DNA from: an uncultured Planctomycetia bacterium
GTDB taxonomy: Bacteria > Planctomycetota > Phycisphaerae > Phycisphaerales > SM1A02
Length of the DNA: 64,000 bases
NCBI GenBank assembly: GCA_937871505.1
Contig: CALMPF010000008.1
Location: forward strand, 62,001-126,000
Direction: 5' to 3'
The notes under the pieces are model-generated. The model did not search any database and was not told the DNA's origin. It saw only the letters and a program-made list of their open reading frames with translations. Positions 3,869 to 63,454 of the stretch are shown here, one piece after another (position 1 is the first letter of the stretch; every line of letters begins with the position of its first letter). Position numbers and translations under genes: made by a program.

Positions 3869-4047
3869 CGCCTCCGGCTTCGCCGCTCCCCGCGGCGGCA
3901 CACGAGCCCCTCCGACGAGACCGCGCGTTGAGTCCCGCTCTCGGCTGCTCGCCAGCCTCTCCGTCGCGGCGCGCGGTCCCCTGCGAAGCGACGGCGCGAG
4001 CCTCGTCCCTCTGTCGGCGGAACGCCCCGCAGCGATCCATCGACCGC

Positions 4048-4275
4048 GGGGCGTTCCGGCGACGGCCGATCGTGCCAGCGACCGCGGGGCGTTCCGGCGG
4101 CGGTGGGTCATGCCTGCGACGGCGGGGCGTTCCCGCGACTGCGGGGCGTGCCTGCGACGGCGGGGCGTTCCCGCGACTGCGGGGCGTGCCTGCGACGGCG
4201 GGGCGTTCCCGCGACGGCGGGTCGTGCCGGTGACGGTGGAACGTCCCTGCGTCGGCGAGGCGTGCCTGCGGCCGA
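4048..4275. repeat. 19-bp tandem repeat, 12 units
   Basis: Twelve back-to-back 19-bp units with consensus GGGGCGTTCCCGCGACGGC; units start every 19 bases from 4048. Central units alternate two sequence types (…TTCCCGCGACTGC and …TGCCTGCGACGGC). This fills most of the 570-bp gene-free stretch between the second CNNM gene and tRNA-Ile. No spacers, so not CRISPR. No convincing gene is seen in 3869-4438. Confidence 0.9.
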
Positions 4276-4438
4276 TCTCGCAGGCCCATCCCGGCGCCCC
4301 GATCCGCGCGGCCGCCGCAGATCCTCCGGTCAGCGCCGCAGGCGGACGCGGCGGAGGCGCCCGGCCCGAGGCCCTTCCCACACGATCGCTCGACCGCTAC
4401 ACTCCCGCCTCGCTCAGCCGGCCCCCGGCGCGTGCGAA

Positions 4439-4512
4439 GGGCTAGTAGCTCAGATGGCTAGAGCGCACCCCTGATAAGGGTGAGGTCGGCAGTTCGAGTC
4501 TGCCCTGGCCCA
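4439..4512 (+). tRNA. tRNA-Ile (GAT)
   Basis: A complete cloverleaf can be folded. The acceptor GGGCTAG pairs with CTGGCCC (two G-T wobble or weak positions) and the discriminator is A. The D-arm starts AGCTCAGATGGCTAGAGC, the anticodon stem-loop is CACCCCTGATAAGGGTG with anticodon GAT, and the T-loop is TTCGAGT. CCA is not encoded. The last 21 bases are part of the 23-bp attachment core of the integrated element; integration has rebuilt an intact tRNA 3' end. A possible -10 element TACACT lies at 4398-4403. Confidence 0.95.
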
Positions 4513-5822
4513 TTACCGAGGTTTGACGTTTCGCCGCAAGCGGTCGCATTCGCTCGCGAAACTCCGGGAAAACAAGGCGTTTTCGTCATTTCCGCCGAAG
4601 CCCTGCGAACGGGTGCGGACGCGTGCTGCGCCGCATTTTGCGCCCCGAGTGCGCCGGATTCTGCGCCGCTTTCTGCGCCCCCCTCCAAGGGCCGGTTCCG
4701 GAGGTCGGGATCGAGCCCGGCGGCGCGGGCGAAGTTCTCGTCGCGGGTCGTGAGGTAGTGCGTCGCGGCGACGCGCTCGGAGTGCCCGAGCCAGCCCGCG
4801 ACCGTATGCGACGGGAATCGCTCAACCCAGTCCGTCGCGCAGCTCCCCCGCATCGCGTGAAAGAGCCTCGGCCACGGCTTGAACCCGGCGCGGGCGATGA
4901 TCCGACCGAAGCCGGTCCGGAGGTTCGCGACGGAGCAGCCGACGCGACCGACCACGGCTTCGGTTCCGGGCTCGGCGGCGTCGAAGAGGCGTTGGAGGAT
5001 CGGCCGCAGTTCGGGCGAGATCGGCACGATTCGCGAGGCGTGCCCCTCGTGACGCGCGGTCTTGGGGCTCCGGACGTGCATCCTGCCGCGTGCCCAATCG
5101 ACGTCGCCCCATCGGAGCAGAGCGAGTTCCGAAGGGACGCGGAGGCCCGCGAAGCGACTCAGGGCGATGATCGCGCGCCAGTCGTCGTCGGGGCATTCGG
5201 CGAGAAGCGCCTCGACGGTCTCGCGCGGAACGTAGAAGGCGCGGTCGGGGTTCGATTGAGGGCCGGCGACGAGATCGGCGAGCGGGCTCTGCGGGATGAG
5301 CTTCCAGCGGACCGCCCGCGCGAAGAGCGCCTTCGCGGTTCGAACGCGCTTCGAGACCGTCGCCTTCGCGATGCCCGATCCCGCGATCGACTTCCGCCAG
5401 TCGTCGGCATCGCCCGGCGCGATCGAGCCGAGCGGCTTGTCGGCGCCGAAGAACTCGACGAGGCTCTTGAACGTCTGCGGATAGGCGGCGCGCGTCGCGG
5501 CCGCGACGTCGGCATTCGCGACGAACCGCTCGATCAGCGCTCCGAGCGTCGTCGTCGTCGGGTCCACGCGAGCGGCGACGAGCCCGACCGCCGCAAGGCG
5601 GGCGTGCATCGAGTCGGGGAGGCTCCGCGTCCATGCCGCAAGATCGGCGTCCCACGGGATGCCCGCCGCCGCCGCGGCGACAAGCGCCTCGACGCGGCCC
5701 TTGAACGATTCCGCGGGCTTCATGGCGATCCTGCCGAGCCGGATCGCGCGGCGGGCGCCGGAGTCTGGATCGACGAAGAGGATTCGGCGTCGGCCGCCGG
5801 GATCGAGAGTGATGCTGGCCAT
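4458..5822 (-). CDS. int: Tyrosine recombinase / integrase whose 3' end lies in the tRNA
   Basis: 454 residues as integrated. An N-terminal SAM-like core-binding domain occupies about residues 90-180. The catalytic domain carries R228 (AGLRVPSE), a lysine near 254, H322-x-x-R325 (HAMR), H347 (LGHS) and the nucleophile candidate Y356 (THYL). After residue 380 there is an Ala/Gly/Ser linker. The frame enters the attachment core at residue 437 and ends with ADLTLIRGAL, the last residues and the TAG stop being read from the strand opposite the tRNA. The ATG at 5820-5822 was chosen because the upstream frame is low-complexity. In the excised circle the frame would continue to 10151, giving 519 residues. 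Confidence 0.88.
   Translation of the reverse strand: MASITLDPGGRRRILFVDPDSGARRAIRLGRIAMKPAESFKGRVEALVAAAAAGIPWDADLAAWTRSLPDSMHARLAAVGLVAARVDPTTTTLGALIERFVANADVAAATRAAYPQTFKSLVEFFGADKPLGSIAPGDADDWRKSIAGSGIAKATVSKRVRTAKALFARAVRWKLIPQSPLADLVAGPQSNPDRAFYVPRETVEALLAECPDDDWRAIIALSRFAGLRVPSELALLRWGDVDWARGRMHVRSPKTARHEGHASRIVPISPELRPILQRLFDAAEPGTEAVVGRVGCSVANLRTGFGRIIARAGFKPWPRLFHAMRGSCATDWVERFPSHTVAGWLGHSERVAATHYLTTRDENFARAAGLDPDLRNRPLEGGAESGAESGALGAQNAAQHASAPVRRASAEMTKTPCFPGVSRANATACGETSNLGNGPGQTRTADLTLIRGAL
4492..4514. repeat. attL core (23 bp)
   Basis: Positions 4492-4514 are identical to 10380-10402. The core covers the T-arm and acceptor 3' strand of tRNA-Ile plus two downstream T residues. 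On the minus strand it encodes NGPGQTRT within the integrase frame, with codon boundaries in the same phase as at attR. Confidence 0.9.
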
Positions 5823-5889
5823 CGGGTGATTCGCCTTTCGTGGGCTCCGTCGGGCGGGGCCTGTAACCGTAGTCAAACTTGTACCGGGT

Positions 5890-6336
5890 TCAGCGCGCGG
5901 CGCCCGCCCTGCCCGCGGCGCGCCTCGGTCGCGCTCCGGCGCGGCGTGCGATCTCCCGCACGATGATCGGGCCGTCGGAGTCGAGCCGCTCGAGCGCCCG
6001 GCCGCCTTCGGCGCGGATCTCGGCCTCGATCTCCGCCCGTCGCTCGGGGGCGAGTTCGGCGACGCGGCGCCGGTCATCGGCGAGCGCGTTCTCGGCGCGC
6101 TGGCGCTCCGAAACCGGGGGCGTCCGCGCGAAGCGGGGCGGCTCGATCTCGCCCGCGTCGAGGGCGAGCGCGAGCGCGACGAAGGTTCCGCAGTTCGGGT
6201 CGGCCGCGGCGAGGTCGGGCCGGAGCGCGAGCGCTGCGGCGAGGAGCCAGTCTCGGCGCGGGGCCGGAAGGCGGGCGAGTGCGTCGATCGCGAACCAGAG
6301 TCCGCGGCCATGAAGTTCGGTCGGATCGGGTCTCAC
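5890..6336 (-). CDS. Hypothetical element protein, 148 aa
   Basis: Not recognised. The N-terminal half has LLAAALALRPDLAAADPNCGTFVALALALDAG, a hydrophobic helical pattern. The C-terminal half is Arg/Glu-rich and probably helical (ERRAEIEAEIRAEGGRALERL). Its ATG overlaps the stop of the rep-like gene by four bases (ATGA), which supports both the start and co-translation. It sits between rep and integrase. The last 25 residues are Arg/Ala-rich. Confidence 0.6.
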   Translation of the reverse strand: MRPDPTELHGRGLWFAIDALARLPAPRRDWLLAAALALRPDLAAADPNCGTFVALALALDAGEIEPPRFARTPPVSERQRAENALADDRRRVAELAPERRAEIEAEIRAEGGRALERLDSDGPIIVREIARRAGARPRRAAGRAGAAR

Positions 6337-7892
6337 GTGCGGTTCTCCGGGAGGGCGGGCTCAGCGACGGCGGCGGCGGAGCGCTTCCGCGCGAGCGCCG
6401 CCGCCGCGGGTCGAAGCAGGGGCGAGCCGGGCGGGATGGCAGCGAGCGCGGGCGATTCGCGTCGGATCTCGGCCTCGAGCGCGGCGTACTCGGCGGCGCT
6501 GAGCCCGGCGAGGGCGTCCTCGCGGTCGGCGGCGACGGCGGTGGCGGCGGCGTCGATCTCGGCGCGGCGGCGCGCCTTCACCTGGGCGAGTCGCTCTCGC
6601 GCGGTCCGCCCTTCGATCGGCGGCGGCGGCTCGAGCGCCGGGGGCGGCGCGGTCGTCGGAAGAGGATCGAGCCGGGCGCCGTCGGCCTCGGTCGTTGCAG
6701 GCCGCTGGCGATCGGTCAACATCGACGCGACGGCGGCGCGGATGAACCGCCCGCCCGGCGGCGCCATCGCCGCGCCCGGGTGCGTGCGTCGGATCTCGGC
6801 CGCGAGCGCGGCGTACTCGGCGGGGTCGAGGGCGGCGATCGCCTCGTCGATCGCTTGCCGCTCAGCGTCGCAGGATGCCCGCTGGGCCGCTTCGGCCGCT
6901 CGGGCGTTCGCAGAGCGGGCCGCGATGCCTTCGGCGGCTTGGCGCTCGGCCTCCGCCCGCTTGGCGGCAAGCCGCGCGGTCTCGACGAGCGGGTAGTAGT
7001 CTCGGTCGCGTGCCCACGTCCGGAGCCAGCGCGGGCCGCGCGGATGGCGCTGAGCGGAGTAGGTCTCGGCCGCGAGGAGGATCTCGTCGGGCGTCGCGCC
7101 GTCGGGGAGGGCGGCTTCGCGCTCGAGGGCCTCGACGACGGCGCGGAGATCGGCGGCGGGGCTCGCGTCGGGCGAGCTGGGATAGGCGGCGACGATTCGC
7201 TCAGCGGCGGCGCGGCGTTCGGCGTCGGCTTGTGCGCGACGAGGCGGGGGCGTCGAGGTCTCGGTTTCTTCGTCTGCCCCGATGAATGAACCCCCCCCCC
7301 TCTTGGTCTTCGCTCTTGGGGGGCTTGGTCCGACTTGGTCTTCCTTGGGGTGTCGGCATCTGGTGCCGCCTTGTCCGGCATTTCCTGCCGCCTTGCTCGG
7401 CGTTTCGTGCCGCCTTGTTCGGCGTGTGGTGCCGCCTTGCCCGCACTTCGGCGCATCGCTCAAGGCGGCATTTCGTGCCGCCTTACTCGGCGCGATGGTC
7501 GGCACGTTCTGCCGCCGACTCGGAGCATCGAGATCGACCGTCCAGCATGACGGATAGCCAGCGCCCGACGCCTTGCGCCCGCCAACGTGGTGACCCTTCT
7601 CGTTGAGCCTGCCGGTCGGAATCAGGACGCCGAACGATTCGAGTTCGCGAACCGCGCGCCGTGCAGCGCGAGTGCCCGCGCCGGCGCGGCGTGCAAGCTC
7701 CGCGACCGTGGTCGAGACGGCCATGTTCTCGCGCCAGAGCGAGCCGAGCGCGGCGTAGGCGACCGCCGTCGCGGTGAGGCTCGGTCGATTCATCACGTTC
7801 GCCCATCGCGCGATGGCGTCGAATCCTTCCGCGTGCGTGTACCCGCGTGCGGTCGCCGGCGTCGCCGAGGTTGTGCCACCGCTCGGCCTCAC
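6333..7892 (-). CDS. Replication-initiator-like winged-helix protein with iterons inside its gene
   Basis: 519 residues from a GTG at 7890-7892 that overlaps the upstream stop (GTGA). Residues about 12-110 form a winged-helix domain: MNRPSLTATAVAYAALG, TTVAELARRAGAGTRAARRAVRELESFGVLI, then a wing region. This resembles the N-terminal DNA-binding domain of phage replication initiators. Residues about 121-176 are encoded by 22-bp direct repeats, and a C10 tract follows at 7291-7300. The C-terminal half is helical, Ala/Glu/Arg-rich, with repeated motifs of the type LDPAEYAALAAEIRRTHPGAA and LSAAEYAALEAEIRR. No Walker motif is seen, so it is not a helicase. The replication role is an inference from architecture. 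Confidence 0.6.
   Translation of the reverse strand: MRPSGGTTSATPATARGYTHAEGFDAIARWANVMNRPSLTATAVAYAALGSLWRENMAVSTTVAELARRAGAGTRAARRAVRELESFGVLIPTGRLNEKGHHVGGRKASGAGYPSCWTVDLDAPSRRQNVPTIAPSKAARNAALSDAPKCGQGGTTRRTRRHETPSKAAGNAGQGGTRCRHPKEDQVGPSPPRAKTKRGGGSFIGADEETETSTPPPRRAQADAERRAAAERIVAAYPSSPDASPAADLRAVVEALEREAALPDGATPDEILLAAETYSAQRHPRGPRWLRTWARDRDYYPLVETARLAAKRAEAERQAAEGIAARSANARAAEAAQRASCDAERQAIDEAIAALDPAEYAALAAEIRRTHPGAAMAPPGGRFIRAAVASMLTDRQRPATTEADGARLDPLPTTAPPPALEPPPPIEGRTARERLAQVKARRRAEIDAAATAVAADREDALAGLSAAEYAALEAEIRRESPALAAIPPGSPLLRPAAAALARKRSAAAVAEPALPENRT
7364..7531. repeat. 22-bp iterons, candidate origin of the element
   Basis: Direct copies of TGCCGCCTTG or close variants start at 7364, 7386, 7408, 7430, 7476 and 7510. 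The first four are exactly 22 bp apart. One inverted copy lies at 7461-7470. A less GC-rich stretch with several CTTGG motifs lies at 7301-7350. Iterons inside a replication gene just after its DNA-binding domain resemble the lambda O/ori arrangement. Confidence 0.65.
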
Positions 7893-8134
7893 CGCGGCGC
7901 CGCCTCGTCGGCGGGTTCGGTCGCGCCGGGTTCGATCGACCGCGCCGCGGCGGCAGCGAGCCACGCGTCGAGGTCCGCGACGCGATAAACGATGCACGCG
8001 CCGAGCTTGGCGCAGCGGATCGGTCCGCGGGGAGCGGTCATGCCCCAGAGCTTCCGTTCCGACACTCCGAGCGCGCGGGCGGCTTCGCGAGGTCGTAAGG
8101 CGAGGCGTGCGGGCGTCGAAGCTTCAGCGGGCAT
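7889..8134 (-). CDS. AlpA/excisionase-like HTH protein
   Basis: 81 residues from the ATG at 8132-8134. The core LRPREAARALGVSERKLWGMTAPRGPIRCAKLGACIVYRVADLDAWLAA is a MerR/HTH_17-type DNA-binding domain: a helix-turn-helix, then a short wing ending in a YRV-x-DLDAWL strand-helix. Small proteins of this type act as excision directionality factors or element regulators. It overlaps the rep-like gene by four bases and the preceding small HTH gene by about 11 bp. A further in-frame ATG at 8158 would add MRRVTGGA; the closer GGGGGG tract favours 8134. Confidence 0.75.
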   Translation of the reverse strand: MPAEASTPARLALRPREAARALGVSERKLWGMTAPRGPIRCAKLGACIVYRVADLDAWLAAAAARSIEPGATEPADEAAPR

Positions 8135-8333
8135 CGCGCCCCCCGTCACCCTTCGCACGCTCGGCGAGAATCGCGACGATGGTCGGAAGATGGAAGAGGT
8201 AAGCGCGATCCGCGCGGAGCGATGGAACCCTGCCCGCCGCGGCTTCCGCGCGAAGCCATCGGGGAGGAACGCGAAGCCATCGCGCGGCCTCGCTCAGGGG
8301 GCGGGGATCATCGGGGAGTGGTCGTTCGGTCAT
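8124..8333 (-). CDS. Small HTH DNA-binding protein, 69 aa
   Basis: This short acidic-to-basic protein has a helix-turn-helix like that of the adjacent AlpA-like protein: LSEAARWLRVPPRWLRAEAAAGRVPSLRADRAYLFHLPTIVAILAERA. The helix pair, the basic recognition segment and the final DLxAxLA-like helix match the HTH_17/MerR fold. The two neighbouring genes may be a repressor/excisionase pair or a recent duplication. Its 3' end overlaps the next gene. Confidence 0.65.
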   Translation of the reverse strand: MTERPLPDDPRPLSEAARWLRVPPRWLRAEAAAGRVPSLRADRAYLFHLPTIVAILAERAKGDGGRDAR

Positions 8334-8384
8334 GCCCCGGAAGATCGGGCACGATCCGGCAAACTACCGGCAGCGAACCGGCAA

Positions 8385-9206
8385 TCAAGGCGCAATCTTC
8401 GGCACCAGTCGGCGCCCTTGCATCGTCAGTCGCGCACCGCCGCGCGGGCCTTCTGTCCGCTCGACGAGCCCTTGGGTCATCAGCCGCTTGATCGAGTCGC
8501 CGATCGTGCGCTCCGAGCGAGCGTCGCACGGCGGCATCGCTTCGTGCACCATCGCGATGGTTGCGAGCCTGGCCGGGTTGAAAGTGGCAAGCGCCGCCAA
8601 GACTGCCACGTCGGTGGTGGTGAGCGGGGGCGGAACCGGTTCGTCCTTCTCGGCGGGATTGGTGATGGAGCGTTGGAGACTCGCTCCGCGCGGCTCCGAG
8701 AGCGCGAGCCTCAGTCCAGCGCCCGCAGCATTCAAGCGATCAAGTGTGACGGCGTCGAGCCCCTCGCCCGCTTCGAACCGCAAGTGTGCTGCGCCGGGAT
8801 CGTTCGCTTGCAGTTCATTCCAGCGCCGTAGCGGGAAGGCGAGCGCCTCGGTGCAATCCTCAATCGCGGCGATGAGTCGGGCGTCGGCGTCCTGCCCGCC
8901 GAAGGGAAGGATCGCAGCTTGGATCTCTTCGACCGGTACCCGGGTCCAAGGTCCGTCGGGGGAGTCGGCTTCGAGTAGCACGATCTCCGCCGGCGTCGGA
9001 ACCCGCTTCGCATGGGAGCGTCGGAGTTCCTCATGCAACGAGGTGAGCGCGTGCGAAACGGTCTCGTGCGCTTCGGAGAGTGCGACCGCGTGAGGTCTTC
9101 CAATGACGCGTCGACCGCCGAACGGGGCGGGAGTCGTCGAGGCTTCGACCGTTCGTTGAAAACGCTCCAGCGCGTCCGCCAATGCGGCGATCGGACAACG
9201 CTCCAT
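8385..9206 (-). CDS. Hypothetical protein with C-terminal winged helix, 273 aa
   Basis: The start at 9206 is supported by a GAAAGGCGAG purine tract about 10 bp upstream; a longer in-frame extension is possible but low-complexity. Residues 1-180 are not recognised (MERCPIAALADALERFQ..., LEADSPDGPWTRVPVEEIQ). Residues about 195-270 form a winged helix: TTTDVAVLAALATFNPARL, SERTIGDSIKRLMTQGLVER, GARLTMQGRRLV. A regulatory or partition role in the element is possible but not shown. Same strand as its neighbours, 97 bp after the zinc-ribbon gene. Confidence 0.6.
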   Translation of the reverse strand: MERCPIAALADALERFQRTVEASTTPAPFGGRRVIGRPHAVALSEAHETVSHALTSLHEELRRSHAKRVPTPAEIVLLEADSPDGPWTRVPVEEIQAAILPFGGQDADARLIAAIEDCTEALAFPLRRWNELQANDPGAAHLRFEAGEGLDAVTLDRLNAAGAGLRLALSEPRGASLQRSITNPAEKDEPVPPPLTTTDVAVLAALATFNPARLATIAMVHEAMPPCDARSERTIGDSIKRLMTQGLVERTEGPRGGARLTMQGRRLVPKIAP

Positions 9207-9303
9207 GCTCACTCGCCTTTCTCGTCGCGGGCCGGTCGGGCGGGGCTTCGGCGCGAGTGTGAGCCGACACCGCCGCCCGGACCGTTCGCGGGGGATCAGC
9301 CCG

Positions 9304-9972
9304 CTACCCGTTGTTCGGGGATTGTCTGCCGCGAGCGTAGTCGACAACGCCGCAGGTCCGGCACCCGACGCCCTTCGCGTCGGGGAAGAGGTGAGCGCGG
9401 CGGATCAAGCATCGCGGGCAGCGGAAGAACGCGCGACGTGCGCCACGAGGCATCGGCACCAGCTCGACGGCGATCTTCACTCCCGGATCGTCGGGTCGGT
9501 CGGCGTCGCGGACGACGACGACGAGGGCGTCGAGGTCTCGCCCCTCGTCGCGGGCTTGTGCGGCGATGAGGGCGGCGTCGAGAATCGCCCCGGCGTCGGC
9601 GCGGCGCGGTCTCATACGAGGGCGCCCGGGCGGGCGTACGGGTGTCGGGGAAAGGTCGTCCAGCGTCTCGCCGGCGGCCTTGGCGTTGAGTTCCTCGATC
9701 GCAACGATGGTCATGGCGAAGCCAAGCCCGTGCCGCCCGGCAGCGTTCGCGGTCGTGAAGCCGCGCCCCGTGCGCTCCGCGTGCGTCTCGGCCATCCGCT
9801 CGGCGAGGCTCGCGAGGCGCTGCCCCGGCGTGCGCTGGAGCCAGCCGCGCCGGAGCGCCGTCCGAAAGAGCCGGGCGTCGCCCCGGAAGTGCCGCGTGTC
9901 CGCGAAGAGGGCGTCCCCTGCGGCGGCGTGCCGCTCGGGCGTCGCATCGGGGGCGTGCGGGCGTGCGGTCAT
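9304..9972 (-). CDS. Zinc-ribbon hypothetical protein, 222 aa
   Basis: Not assigned to a family. The C-terminus has a four-cysteine zinc ribbon, CPRC at about residues 187-190 and CRTC at about 206-209, in FFRCPRCLIRRAHLFPDAK and GVGCRTCGVVDYARG. The N-terminal half is helical and charged. It is the first gene of the element's unidirectional set when the circle is drawn, lying just downstream of the integrase tail. The 178 bp upstream (9973-10150) hold no clear gene and could carry the element's promoter. Confidence 0.6.
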   Translation of the reverse strand: MTARPHAPDATPERHAAAGDALFADTRHFRGDARLFRTALRRGWLQRTPGQRLASLAERMAETHAERTGRGFTTANAAGRHGLGFAMTIVAIEELNAKAAGETLDDLSPTPVRPPGRPRMRPRRADAGAILDAALIAAQARDEGRDLDALVVVVRDADRPDDPGVKIAVELVPMPRGARRAFFRCPRCLIRRAHLFPDAKGVGCRTCGVVDYARGRQSPNNG

Positions 9973-10150
9973 GGCGTAGGCTTGGCGGGCAGTCGTGGAC
10001 GATGAACGGCGATACCCGCCGCGCGAAGCGATCGGGGGGCTCGGGGGGCCTCTGCGCGGATCGCCGCGGGGAGTTCGACTCCGCCCGGCGCGGGAGAGGC
10101 GACGTACCCGTTCGCCTCTCGCGTCCGCAAGGCGGGCTCGGCGTTGCCGG

Positions 10151-10402
10151 TCACGTCCCCCGCGCCGCGATCACCATCGCGAGGATGCCCGCCCGAATCG
10201 CCGGCGGGAGCGTCGGCCAAGCGTCGGCGACCGAGGCGAGGTCGGGATCGGCCACGGGTTCCGGGCCGGTCTTGGGAGCGGTCTTGCGGCCTTCTCCGCC
10301 CTCCCGATCGTCGCCAGGTGCGCCGGATTCTGCGCCGCCCTCGGCGCCAAGTGCGGTTTTCTGCGGGAACGGCGCGCCTGTTCGAGTCTGCCCTGGCCCA
10401 TT
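10151..10402 (-). CDS. Displaced 3' segment of the integrase gene (tail read only in the circular form)
   Basis: From the attR core the minus-strand frame encodes NGPGQTRT, shared with the integrase, and then 75 residues to a TGA at 10151. The tail has a polar linker (GAPFPQKTALGAEGGAESGAP...) and a compact hydrophobic end, DLASVADAWPTLPPAIRAGI followed by LAMVIAARGT. The phase matches the integrase frame exactly across the core, so circularisation joins them. In the integrated state no obvious start precedes it, although the frame stays open into the chromosome to about 10768. Confidence 0.7.
   Translation of the reverse strand, partial: NGPGQTRTGAPFPQKTALGAEGGAESGAPGDDREGGEGRKTAPKTGPEPVADPDLASVADAWPTLPPAIRAGILAMVIAARGT
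10380..10402. repeat. attR core (23 bp)
   Basis: This is an exact copy of 4492-4514 at the far end of the element. It is the displaced original 3' end of tRNA-Ile; no 5' half of a tRNA precedes it. Minus-strand reading gives the same NGPGQTRT peptide in the same phase, continuing into the integrase tail segment at 10151-10379. Confidence 0.9.
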
Positions 10403-10674: not shown

Positions 10675-11079
10675 TCACGCCCGGACGATCGCGCGGATCA
10701 GATCGGTGAAGTCGCCAAGCCGCTCGCGGATGATCGACTCGACGATGGCGCGATCGAGGCGCTGGCACTCGTGCACCGCGAGATCCCTGAATCCGACCAT
10801 GCGCTTCAACCGCTCTCCGAGGTCCTTCGGGATCACTTCCGCCTCAACGAGAAGCTCGAAGGCGTGACGGCCGTCGCGGGCGATTCCCAGCCTCCGGATC
10901 GCGATGACATGAGTGGCGAGCTCGATCGACTGCTCGCACGCCCGCTGGAGGTTCAGGACGACCGAGTCCATCACCGTCTGATCACCGAGGGCCGCCATTC
11001 CACCAGCGGTCTCCTCCCCGACGCGCGCGAGGCACCGTTCGATCGACGCCACCTTGCTCGCGACCCGGTCACCGCCCAC
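10675..11079 (-). CDS. hepT: HepT-like RNase toxin (DUF86) with Tyr-to-Cys change
   Basis: 134 residues. The opening (VASKVASIERCLARVGEE) and the helical HEPN core are typical. The catalytic RX4HX(Y) motif reads RDLAVHEC: Arg and His are kept, but the tyrosine that is AMPylated by MntA in the characterised pair is Cys (TGC). HepT acts as an RNase toxin neutralised by the MntA nucleotidyltransferase. The GTG at 11077-11079 overlaps the mntA-like stop by 11 bp, so the order is antitoxin then toxin. An upstream GTG at 11085 is an alternative start. Confidence 0.85.
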   Translation of the reverse strand: MGGDRVASKVASIERCLARVGEETAGGMAALGDQTVMDSVVLNLQRACEQSIELATHVIAIRRLGIARDGRHAFELLVEAEVIPKDLGERLKRMVGFRDLAVHECQRLDRAIVESIIRERLGDFTDLIRAIVRA

Positions 11080-11566
11080 GTGCACTCACCTCGCGGTAGG
11101 GCGTGAGAAAGGCCTCGACCGCCTTCCCGCGGATCTCATTGAACCACGCGTAGTCGGCGAGCGCTTCGGCAGCGAACCGGTCGGCGGCGGAGGCATCTTC
11201 GGCCAGCGTTCGCACGCCCGTGCCGATCACCTGGGCGCGCATCGTGCCATCGGCTCGCCGAAGATCGATGAGATCGACGTCGCGCTCGAAGAGCACCGCA
11301 AGATCCTGAGCCGCGTCGTAGAGACCGACCGGATCGAGTGGACGATCGGCCAGTACGGCCAGGTCGATGTCGCTCCCCGGGTGAACCACACCTCCGACGG
11401 TCGAGCCGAATCGGTACACGGCGAGGACGCGGACATGCTCGCCGCACCGCGCCGCGATGCAGTCGCGGACGACGTGATCGGGTTCTCTCTGGGCAGCGGA
11501 ATCGTCGCAAGGCCGACCCTCGGACCTGCTTTCCGGTTCGAACTGTCGTCCAGCGCCGAGAGCCAT
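11069..11566 (-). CDS. mntA: MntA-like nucleotidyltransferase antitoxin
   Basis: 165 residues from the ATG at 11566. The nucleotidyltransferase signature GSX10DXD is complete: FGSTVGGVVHPGSDIDLAVL. A third acidic strand follows in FERDVDLIDLRRA. The family AMPylates HepT. The first 45 residues (to DHVVRDCIA) are longer and more charged than usual, so the real start may be further in. It is paired with hepT through an 11-bp overlap. Confidence 0.8.
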   Translation of the reverse strand: MALGAGRQFEPESRSEGRPCDDSAAQREPDHVVRDCIAARCGEHVRVLAVYRFGSTVGGVVHPGSDIDLAVLADRPLDPVGLYDAAQDLAVLFERDVDLIDLRRADGTMRAQVIGTGVRTLAEDASAADRFAAEALADYAWFNEIRGKAVEAFLTPYREVSARGR

Positions 11567-11834
11567 GAGCGAATGGTACACGTTCTCGCAGGCGCGATCT
11601 TCGGTGGCGAGCTTCATCATCAGTCGATTCGTGAAGGCGTGGCGCTCTCCGATGACGACGGACCCGTCGGCGCCTCCAGCGCAGTGCTCACCAGCGCCGA
11701 GGTCACCCTCGACAACGTCGGCGAGCACCGGCTCATCGCCGAGCAGCCTGTGCGAAAGTGCCTTGCAGGCGAGGGCGAGCGGGGAGGTCGCGACGGCCTG
11801 CTCGATGCTCGTCGTCTGCGATGCCTCGCGCTCG

Positions 11835-61324: not shown

Positions 61325-63454
61325 CTACGTCAGCCGCGAGAACCGCCGCGTGCTCCCGGGGAAGTCGACGCCCATCGCGAACCCGAAGAGCAGGCCGAGC
61401 GCCGCCGCGGCTCCGATCGTCGCCGCTGCGAGCTCGGGCGGCCGCGCTTCCAGCGGCGCGGCGACGGCGGTCAGCCCGGCACCGGCGATCGCGCTCGCGA
61501 TGGCGCACCACTGATAGAGCCGCAGTCCGCCGATGTGCTGCGTCTGCGCCTCGCCGCGAAGACCCTCTTCGACGAACCGCGAGAGCCCCGCGAGCAGGAG
61601 GTAGGCGCCGAGCACGAAGGAGGCGTCGGCGCGGATCGCCCAGAGTCGAGCGAGAAGCGCCGCGATGACGAGATTCGCCGCGATCGAGTAGAGCGGCGTC
61701 GGGTGGATGCCCACGCCGCCGAGGCCGGAGACGAAGACCACGCGGGAGTTGGGATTGACCACCCGGAGAGCGCTCGGTCCATCGACCGGCGCGCCGTGGC
61801 AGCACCCCTGCACGAGGCAGCGCAGGCGTCCGATCGCCTGGACCCACGGTGCGGCGACGGCGGAGGCCGCCGCGAGAAGCCACGCGTCCCCGCCTGCGAG
61901 CGCGACGCCCGCGAGCGCCGCCGCGGCGCCGAGCACGGCGCCGAAGTAGCCGAACGGTCGGGTGAGGAGCCGCGATCCCGTCCAGAACTGCCCCCACAGC
62001 GCCGCGCCCACGAGGGCCGAGATGGCGACGATCGCGATCTCGCCGACCGCGGAGGCGCCTGCGAGCGTTCCCGCGACGAGAACGCCGACCGCCGCTGCGA
62101 TGCCCGCGAAGATCCCGTGATTGATCACCCGCGCCGGTCCGAGGCGCCACGCGCGCCATGCGTTCGCAAGCCGCTCGGCGGCACGGACCGCGGCGAGCCA
62201 GCCGCGCGGGAGGCTCGAAGCGATCGCGAAGAGCGCTGCGCCCGCAGCGATGTCGATGATCGAGTGCATCCCCGTCGTGGCGCAGCTCGCGGCGATGGCG
62301 AGCGCCCATGTCCACGCCGCGATCGCCGCGATGCCGCCGCGCCGGGCGATCAGCGCCGCCGCAGCGAACGTCCAGAAGACATGGAATGCCGGACAGGCCG
62401 CTCGCCCGGCGAGGCCGTCGGCGCGCTCGAAGGCGAGGAGCGGACCGGCGAAGGCCCCGGCATCGAAGTCGCGCGGCGGCGCGATCAGGGGCAGGACGAG
62501 GTAGGTCAGCAGTCCGAGCCCGCTTCCGATCAGCCCGACGAGCGCGAAGCTCCGGAGGGCGTGCCGCGTCCGCGCGGCCAGGGGCGCGAGCACGACGAAC
62601 GGATAGGCGCTGGAGTAGATGAGCGTCGTCCACGTCCAGACCGGCCAGGCGCGCTCGAAGGGCAGCCACGTCTCGATGGCGCCGGGAACGGGGAGGTGTC
62701 CCACGAACTCGTACGCGATCAGCCACGGCAGCAGGACCGCGAGCCAGAGGCCGAGGACCTCCATGAACTTCGGGGCACCTCCCTCGCTCTCGAAGGATGA
62801 GTCGAGACTCGTCGCCGGGAGCGCCACGATCGGCCGCGGCCGCTTCGGGAAGCGCCGGCGCAGCGCGGGTCCCTCATGGCCGAGCACGAGGGCGGCGCTC
62901 CCTGCGGCGACGGTCGGGGCGACCACCCAGAAGCCGCCCGGAGAACCCGCCATGAGGGCAACGCCCGCGCAGGCGACGGCGAAGCCCACGTAGATCGGAT
63001 GCGCGACGAGCCTGAAAGGTCCGCTGGTGACCAGACGCGGGGGCGGGTACGCGTTCATCGGAAGCCCGCCGCCGCGGCGCCAGAGGGCGAGCATCGCCCA
63101 CGCGGCAATGGCGAGCCCTGCGGCCGTCGATGCGGCGCCGAGCGCCGGTGCGTGCGCCGTCGGCAGGTCGAGCGTCGCCGAGAGCCGCGCGGCCCACGCG
63201 ACGAGAAGCAGCGGCAGGACCACCACGAAGAGGGCGCCGTAGCCGAGCTTGCCGATGGTCGAGCCCGCCGTCGGCGCCGCTCCTCGCTCCGCGGGGGCGT
63301 GATGCAGGGAAGCGCCCGACGCTCCGCCGCGCCCGGCGGCGGCGCGCGCTTCTGCCGCCCTCTCCGGCGACCGCGTGCTCGGATCGGCGGGTGGCTGCGA
63401 CGATGGAGCGACCGTCGCGCCTTCCGGGTCGTCGTGCCGCGCTGCGTCGCTCAT
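61325..63454 (-). CDS. Triple-domain membrane fusion: ICMT/PEMT-like + PAP2-like + Lgt-like
   Basis: 709 residues. After a disordered N-terminus comes an isoprenylcysteine/phospholipid methyltransferase-like region (about 65-230; TSGPFRLVAHPIYVGFAVAC). Then a PAP2/inositolphosphotransferase-like region (about 240-450; CPAFHVFWTFAAAA and TTGMHSIIDIAAG) and an Lgt-like region (about 470-700; RLRCLVQGCCHGAPVDGPSA, GIHPTPLYSIAANL, RFVEEGLRGEAQTQ). The HPTxLY and RFxEExLR motifs fit prolipoprotein diacylglyceryl transferases. The ATG overlaps the upstream stop by four bases. The protein may act in lipid or lipoprotein modification. Confidence 0.75.
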   Translation of the reverse strand: MSDAARHDDPEGATVAPSSQPPADPSTRSPERAAEARAAAGRGGASGASLHHAPAERGAAPTAGSTIGKLGYGALFVVVLPLLLVAWAARLSATLDLPTAHAPALGAASTAAGLAIAAWAMLALWRRGGGLPMNAYPPPRLVTSGPFRLVAHPIYVGFAVACAGVALMAGSPGGFWVVAPTVAAGSAALVLGHEGPALRRRFPKRPRPIVALPATSLDSSFESEGGAPKFMEVLGLWLAVLLPWLIAYEFVGHLPVPGAIETWLPFERAWPVWTWTTLIYSSAYPFVVLAPLAARTRHALRSFALVGLIGSGLGLLTYLVLPLIAPPRDFDAGAFAGPLLAFERADGLAGRAACPAFHVFWTFAAAALIARRGGIAAIAAWTWALAIAASCATTGMHSIIDIAAGAALFAIASSLPRGWLAAVRAAERLANAWRAWRLGPARVINHGIFAGIAAAVGVLVAGTLAGASAVGEIAIVAISALVGAALWGQFWTGSRLLTRPFGYFGAVLGAAAALAGVALAGGDAWLLAAASAVAAPWVQAIGRLRCLVQGCCHGAPVDGPSALRVVNPNSRVVFVSGLGGVGIHPTPLYSIAANLVIAALLARLWAIRADASFVLGAYLLLAGLSRFVEEGLRGEAQTQHIGGLRLYQWCAIASAIAGAGLTAVAAPLEARPPELAAATIGAAAALGLLFGFAMGVDFPGSTRRFSRLT

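Follow-up and report, generated by a model that had tools for sequence, protein, structure and literature searches.

What does a recombinase gene encode when the site at which its element inserts lies inside the gene itself? The question is raised by a 64,000-nucleotide stretch of contig CALMPF010000008.1 from an uncultured Planctomycetia bacterium (positions 62,001–126,000 of the forward strand; hereafter the window), in which a mobile element occupies the 3′ end of a tRNA-Ile gene and its tyrosine integrase gene, int, runs into that tRNA on the opposite strand. The attachment (att) core lies in frame within int, and the integrated and predicted circular forms of the gene encode different C-termini. 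In relatives of the element, the longer protein (Int), with a conserved tail, is encoded on contigs that carry end repeats.

The att core and the two C-termini of one gene

The integration target, tRNA-Ile(GAT), was located with ARAGORN at 4439–4512 on the plus strand and stays intact. Two identical 23-bp copies of the core (GTTCGAGTCTGCCCTGGCCCATT), recognized by repeat identity, lie at attL (4492–4514) and attR (10380–10402), with no extra matching base on either side; the core comprises the 3′ end of the tRNA plus two bases. The int gene starts at 5822 with MASITLD, the start used in the family, and stops at 4458 on the minus strand, giving in its integrated form (4458–5822) a 454-amino acid tyrosine recombinase with matches to PF00589 (E = 2e-10) and the PHROG_1 integrase (E = 5e-33) and with the invariant R/K/H/Y positions. 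The catalytic residues are all encoded before the core and are kept in the integrated product.

The attL core is read by int as NGPGQTRT, and the protein then ends in ten residues, ADLTLIRGAL, that come from the strand opposite tRNA-Ile. Read in the int frame from 10402, the attR core likewise encodes NGPGQTRT, followed by 75 residues and a stop at 10151. This tail (10151–10379, minus strand), identified by frame reading, becomes part of int only in the circle, where the protein would run on into GAPFPQK and the predicted open reading frame (ORF) amounts to 436 + 83 = 519 amino acids. The codons of its conserved C-terminal mini-domain, DPDLASVADAWPTLPPAIRAGILAMVIAARGT, occupy 10154–10249 on the minus strand, as delimited by alignment and by the helical hairpin that was modeled for a homologue, L179. 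The window tail has no match in Pfam or PHROG, and a scan with it as query returned no relative. The original prediction, made from this sequence, had placed the 23-bp core inside the integrase frame with matching frames at attL and attR, which is exact to the base; its lengths of 454 amino acids integrated and 519 circular, with 75 added residues, are all reproduced by translation.

At the window locus alone, the frame match and the 75 open codons could be due to chance, and not improbably, because the other two frames past the attR core of this GC-rich DNA also stay open, for 68 and 135 codons. The case against chance therefore rests on relatives, in which in-frame tails are found family-wide and the tail sequence is conserved.

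Integrated and free-type relatives

Homologues of the integrase were found in 79 of 151 searched relative genomes. Loci of up to 20 kb were retrieved around many of these, together with 80 from GTDB contigs (mostly Phycisphaerales, Pirellulales and Planctomycetales) and 52 from IMG/VR; the relative-genome and GTDB loci partly coincide, and redundant entries were removed for the two counts that follow. Among 130 non-redundant integrases from bacterial genomes, 100 have their stop inside an antisense tRNA or transfer-messenger RNA (tmRNA), and at least 8 more run through one, for a total of at least 108. Only about 5 of the 130 end just ahead of the core, and a profile search found the tail within the ORF in none of them. 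The targets used by the family include tRNA-Val, Glu, Ile, Leu, Met, Phe, Lys, Asn and Ser as well as tmRNA. In a search that made no use of the tail, attR was recognized upstream of int by a second copy of the tRNA 3′ end that matched over 16 nt or more. In each of the 27 independent elements recovered in this way, the core falls within the int ORF and the int frame remains open past attR as a tail of 41–123 codons, whereas the other two frames reach at least 39 codons in 12 and 10 of the 27 elements, respectively.

The long form is found in non-integrated records. Int and tail form one ORF on five IMG/VR contigs with end repeats of 44–123 bp. The two smallest encode a 505-amino acid Int: L171 (7,355 bp, 69-bp end repeat) within one ORF, and L169 (7,437 bp, 123-bp end repeat) when read across the contig ends. 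Full-length Int plus tail is also present on L183 (25,586 bp, 119-bp end repeat), L192 (43,792 bp, 80-bp end repeat) and L173 (64,283 bp, 44-bp end repeat), and on three IMG/VR contigs that carry no end repeats (L179, L191 and L214). The original prediction had proposed a single gene with two C-termini set by integration state and a search for proteins joining integrase and tail; the five end-repeat records supply contiguous ones and support the proposal. It had also named two patterns that would count against it, relatives in which the integrase always ends ahead of the core and a tail with random codon change and no conserved sequence; neither is seen, given the small number of integrases that end before the core and the conserved tail with its third-position-biased substitutions. 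In L183, a perfect 21-nt tRNA-Glu 3′ end lies within the int ORF, 67 codons ahead of the stop. The two states can also be compared directly: Int of the integrated L105, at tRNA-Val, is 80% identical to that of the circular-type L169 over residues 1–447, beyond which L105 ends in antisense tRNA-Val and L169 continues into the tail. As a caution for annotation, integrated copies of family integrases do not carry their true C-terminus, and terminal peptides such as GLEPVTSAM or WAIQGSNL are antisense tRNA.

L169 encodes a terminase small subunit (PF05119), and L171 a prohead protease (PF04586) and a DnaB-like helicase; from this gene content both look like planctomycete phage satellites. L178 and L179, viral contigs of 35.7 kb, have 26.3 kb in common, exact wherever compared and including the full-length Int, and diverge on either side of it. 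They could be taken for one 35.7-kb genome in two circular permutations, but outside the common stretch they are unlike each other, and they were not counted as circular. The source genome of the window contains a second integrase (L002, G000:C66:86478-87704) that is 40% identical, carries an internal TAG and has a tmRNA gene nearby; it probably belongs to a decayed element of the same integrase family. Among cultured phages and plasmids, only distant matches to the integrase were found.

The tail and the arm-like repeats

Aligned tails comprise a short spacer, an SGGAESGA-like block and then, mostly, a mini-domain of the type DPDLAxVVxAWPxLPxAIRAGIxAMV; besides this type there are two other tail classes. 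Between disjoint pairs, substitutions in the mini-domain fall on codon positions 1/2/3 in the numbers 83/49/114 (p = 2.5e-6; the codon and permutation tests count related elements as separate). Because of this third-position bias, the mini-domain is, as judged from its substitutions, under selection at the protein level. The SGGAESGA block gives 60/55/72 between disjoint pairs and appears to be constrained at the DNA level, because it is without codon periodicity. Of 35 pairs compared, 33 have a ratio of nonsynonymous to synonymous differences (pN/pS) below 1 (values uncorrected and pairs not independent).

An AlphaFold2 model of L179 Int, computed from an alignment of 52 sequences, contains a confident N-terminal three-strand-plus-helix domain and a confident catalytic domain, and its best match in the PDB is lambda integrase on DNA. 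Residues 397–461, encoded by the arm and core DNA, are disordered, with a predicted local distance difference test score (pLDDT) below 50 (35–50 in the linker). They are followed by a C-terminal hairpin, residues 463–491, at a pLDDT of mostly 73–92. The mini-domain is predicted to fold as a helical hairpin, and the "hydrophobic end" that the original prediction had seen in the tail is better described as this small module. Two other identities for the tail were considered. An independent small gene is rejected, as it would be without a conserved start codon and full-length fusions exist. As a degradation tag the tail receives no support from its C-terminal residues, which are diverse among 38 tails (ARLN, KAGR, EGEG, TSRR, ARGT and others) and mostly not ssrA-like.

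The DNA that encodes the linker and the proximal tail carries a second feature. A repeat scan identified five tandem TGCGCC half-sites, 11–12 bp apart (4627, 4639, 4650, 4662 and 4674; span 4627–4679), within the int linker, and two further half-sites 12 bp apart at 10319–10336, 43–61 bp inside attR and over the tail codons GGAESGA. TGCGCC pairs with this 11–12-bp spacing occur at these two places only in the 64-kb window, and in the circle the two arrays would flank the core, one on each side. Relatives share the arrangement, with a half-site pair (GGCGCAnAAnnC type) 43–57 bp inside attR and the same motif in the int linker about 110–165 bp ahead of the core. The 19-mers of the tail arm match the linker of their own element at 16.9 of 19 positions, compared with 13.1 for the linkers of other elements and about 11 for shuffled sequences, and the own-linker match was reached by 0 of 20,000 permutations. 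The best copy in the linker and the copy in the tail are read in different frames in about half of the elements; in one example a single DNA motif yields the peptides AQQKAQQ (linker) and GAAKSAA (tail). Because the two copies are often in different frames, the arm-block peptide itself is not what is conserved. The natural reading of these repeats is that they are candidate arm-type integrase sites of the lambda kind. Family linkers contain a second conserved block, of the TPCFxGV...C type at the peptide level, between the arm repeats and the core (about 4515–4600 in the window), which may be another DNA site.

Proposed mechanism, alternatives and known systems

We consider it likely that these features together form a self-contained integration module in which the C-terminus of Int is switched by integration. 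The attP site (arm-type sites, core, arm-type site) would lie wholly within the reading frame of a lambda-like tyrosine integrase. In the free circle, the 519-amino acid Int would consist of an arm-binding-like N-terminus, the catalytic domain, a disordered linker encoded by arm sites and core, and the folded helical mini-domain. Integration at the tRNA-Ile 3′ end would split the ORF at the core, leaving the catalytic part complete in a 454-amino acid protein with ten terminal residues set by the tRNA antisense and stranding the tail at attR. Excision would restore the long form, probably with the help of a helix-turn-helix (HTH) excisionase. The candidate Xis is a small HTH_17/excisionase-like protein encoded at 7889–8158 on the minus strand (PF12728, E = 6e-8; PHROG_66 excisionase); a second small protein, at 8124–8333 on the same strand, has a weak excisionase-like match (PHROG_1840, E = 0.003; HTH_17 below the cut-off). 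The tail is conserved at the protein level although Int carries it only in the free element; its role would therefore belong to the free state or to the integration step, where the tail most likely favors attP × attB recombination or assembly of the Int complex. By analogy to the Myxococcus phage Mx8, loss of the tail would most likely stabilize the insertion by leaving a weaker or altered integrated Int. A broader claim, that this is a module common in planctomycetes in which attP is overprinted on int, a folded C-terminal domain is removed and restored in every cycle, and the integration state is written into the recombinase, we hold with less assurance, as slightly more likely than not.

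Several observations weigh against this account. The predicted circle junction of the window element has no exact match in IMG/VR, exact IMG/VR scans for the junction of a second element and for a degenerate junction were likewise empty, and neither an empty tRNA-Ile site nor a read-level junction for the window element was seen among the metagenome-assembled genome and viral contigs. End repeats suggest circularity of the five free-type contigs and fall short of proof. Of the eight full-length forms tested for a tRNA match at the core, L171, L169, L179 and L191 have just 14–15 nt where the match is expected (no more than 11 in controls), and L173, L192 and L214 have no clear match. Identity of the tail also correlates weakly with that of the catalytic domain (rho 0.16 over 38 elements, reached by 48 of 2,000 permutations). 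Elements may exchange tails with one another, perhaps through recombination at tRNA cores they have in common, and given the weak correlation and the several tail classes a single tail function common to all elements is not assured.

The alternatives differ in what they make of the tail. One is that GC-rich DNA keeps frames open and that both the run into antisense tRNA and the open frame at the far end are meaningless. The openness of the other frames at the window fits this idea, but the 27 of 27 in-frame tails, their conserved sequence, the full-length ORFs in non-integrated records and the shared geometry of at least 108 of 130 integrases exclude it for the family, and we give it practically no credence. 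A second proposal is that attP occupies the 3′ end of int as a space-saving arrangement, with the tail peptide arising only as a side effect of the arm-site DNA. Such peptides as GGAESGA, AQNAAQ and AKSAA do behave as DNA-level features: a single DNA motif recurs in the two arms, frequently in different reading frames, its copies covary within each element, and codon periodicity is absent. This accounts for the arm and not for the mini-domain beyond it, where the third-position bias, the pN/pS values, the confident predicted fold and the invariably open frame all point to a selected protein, and we regard a purely DNA-based explanation as improbable.

More weight, though still on the unlikely side, is due to the idea that the tail restrains free Int, by autoinhibition or by targeting it for degradation, and that integration yields the active or stable form, as for the repressor of mycobacteriophage BPs. 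A short folded C-terminal module would be compatible with autoinhibition as well. However, the tail ends are diverse and mostly not ssrA-like, conservation centers on a helical hairpin inside the tail rather than on the terminus, and the restrained form would be the one needed for integration. We favor a tail that assists the free Int over one that restrains it.

Three further features lie near these genes. A HepT-like RNase and a nucleotidyltransferase, resembling a HepT/MntA-type toxin-antitoxin pair, are encoded at 10675–11728 on the minus strand, on the chromosome side just beyond attR. A tandem array with a 19-bp unit lies just upstream of tRNA-Ile (3994–4297), and another with a 22-bp unit (7353–7492) lies within an element ORF at 6333–7997.

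As precedents, the original prediction had named the split SSV-type integrases of archaeal viruses and integration-dependent immunity in mycobacteriophages; both are related cases, and the closer one is Mx8, with Mx9. In Mx8, attP lies within the int coding sequence and integration gives int a new 3′ end, which modifies its specificity and does not inactivate it (PMC6070905, a review that also covers Mx9). The window family resembles Mx8 in having the core in the int frame, in exchanging the C-terminus while keeping the catalytic domain, and in having the long form in the non-integrated state, seen here in the five end-repeat relatives. The Mx8 Int ORF likewise passes through a tRNA-antisense-like peptide, GLEPVLL, before a long tail. 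Mx8 Int is of the same superfamily, but it falls outside the window subfamily, to which it has only a weak match in the core-binding domain; its tail sequence is unrelated, and 12-bp repeats were not seen on either side of its core. To what is known from Mx8, the planctomycete family adds conservation across a family, a mini-domain under apparent selection, arm-like sites on both sides of the core within the ORF, and many tRNA and tmRNA targets.

The BPs group of mycobacteriophages also has attP in a coding sequence and an integrated product that is shorter at its C-terminus (PMC4557955); there it is the repressor that is rewritten, and what it loses is an ssrA-like degradation tag, whereas in the planctomycete element attP is in the integrase gene. 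In the SSV-type "suicidal" integrases, too, attP is located within the integrase gene, the module is compact and the gene is altered by integration. In their case, insertion leaves N and C fragments of the protein, with the catalytic domain detached from the N-terminal part; the planctomycete product keeps all catalytic residues and exchanges only its tail. Lambda Int provides the closest solved fold, and the likeness extends to the predicted N-terminal three-strand-plus-helix domain and to repeats on both sides of the core. With its PF00589 domain and this fold match, Int has the catalytic domain expected of a heterobivalent, lambda-like recombinase. The lambda attP lies outside int; the planctomycete attP would lie wholly inside the int frame and shape the peptide.

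In the open-access papers searched we found no report of a self-rewriting integrase from planctomycetes. The kind is already known from Mx8 and Mx9; its conservation in planctomycetes, the folded tail suggested by modeling, the overprinted arm-like sites and the many targets are new. Together with Mx8, the family is a bacterial counterpart of the archaeal case, with the enzyme altered and not split, and it runs counter to the claim that recombinase genes of this self-rewriting type occur only in archaea. The direction of integrase reactions is usually ascribed to separate excisionases and DNA architecture, whereas here the reaction changes the enzyme itself. The family is large and offers many natural replicates, in which the role of the C-terminus in direction and stability can be tested by comparing two natural forms of one integrase.

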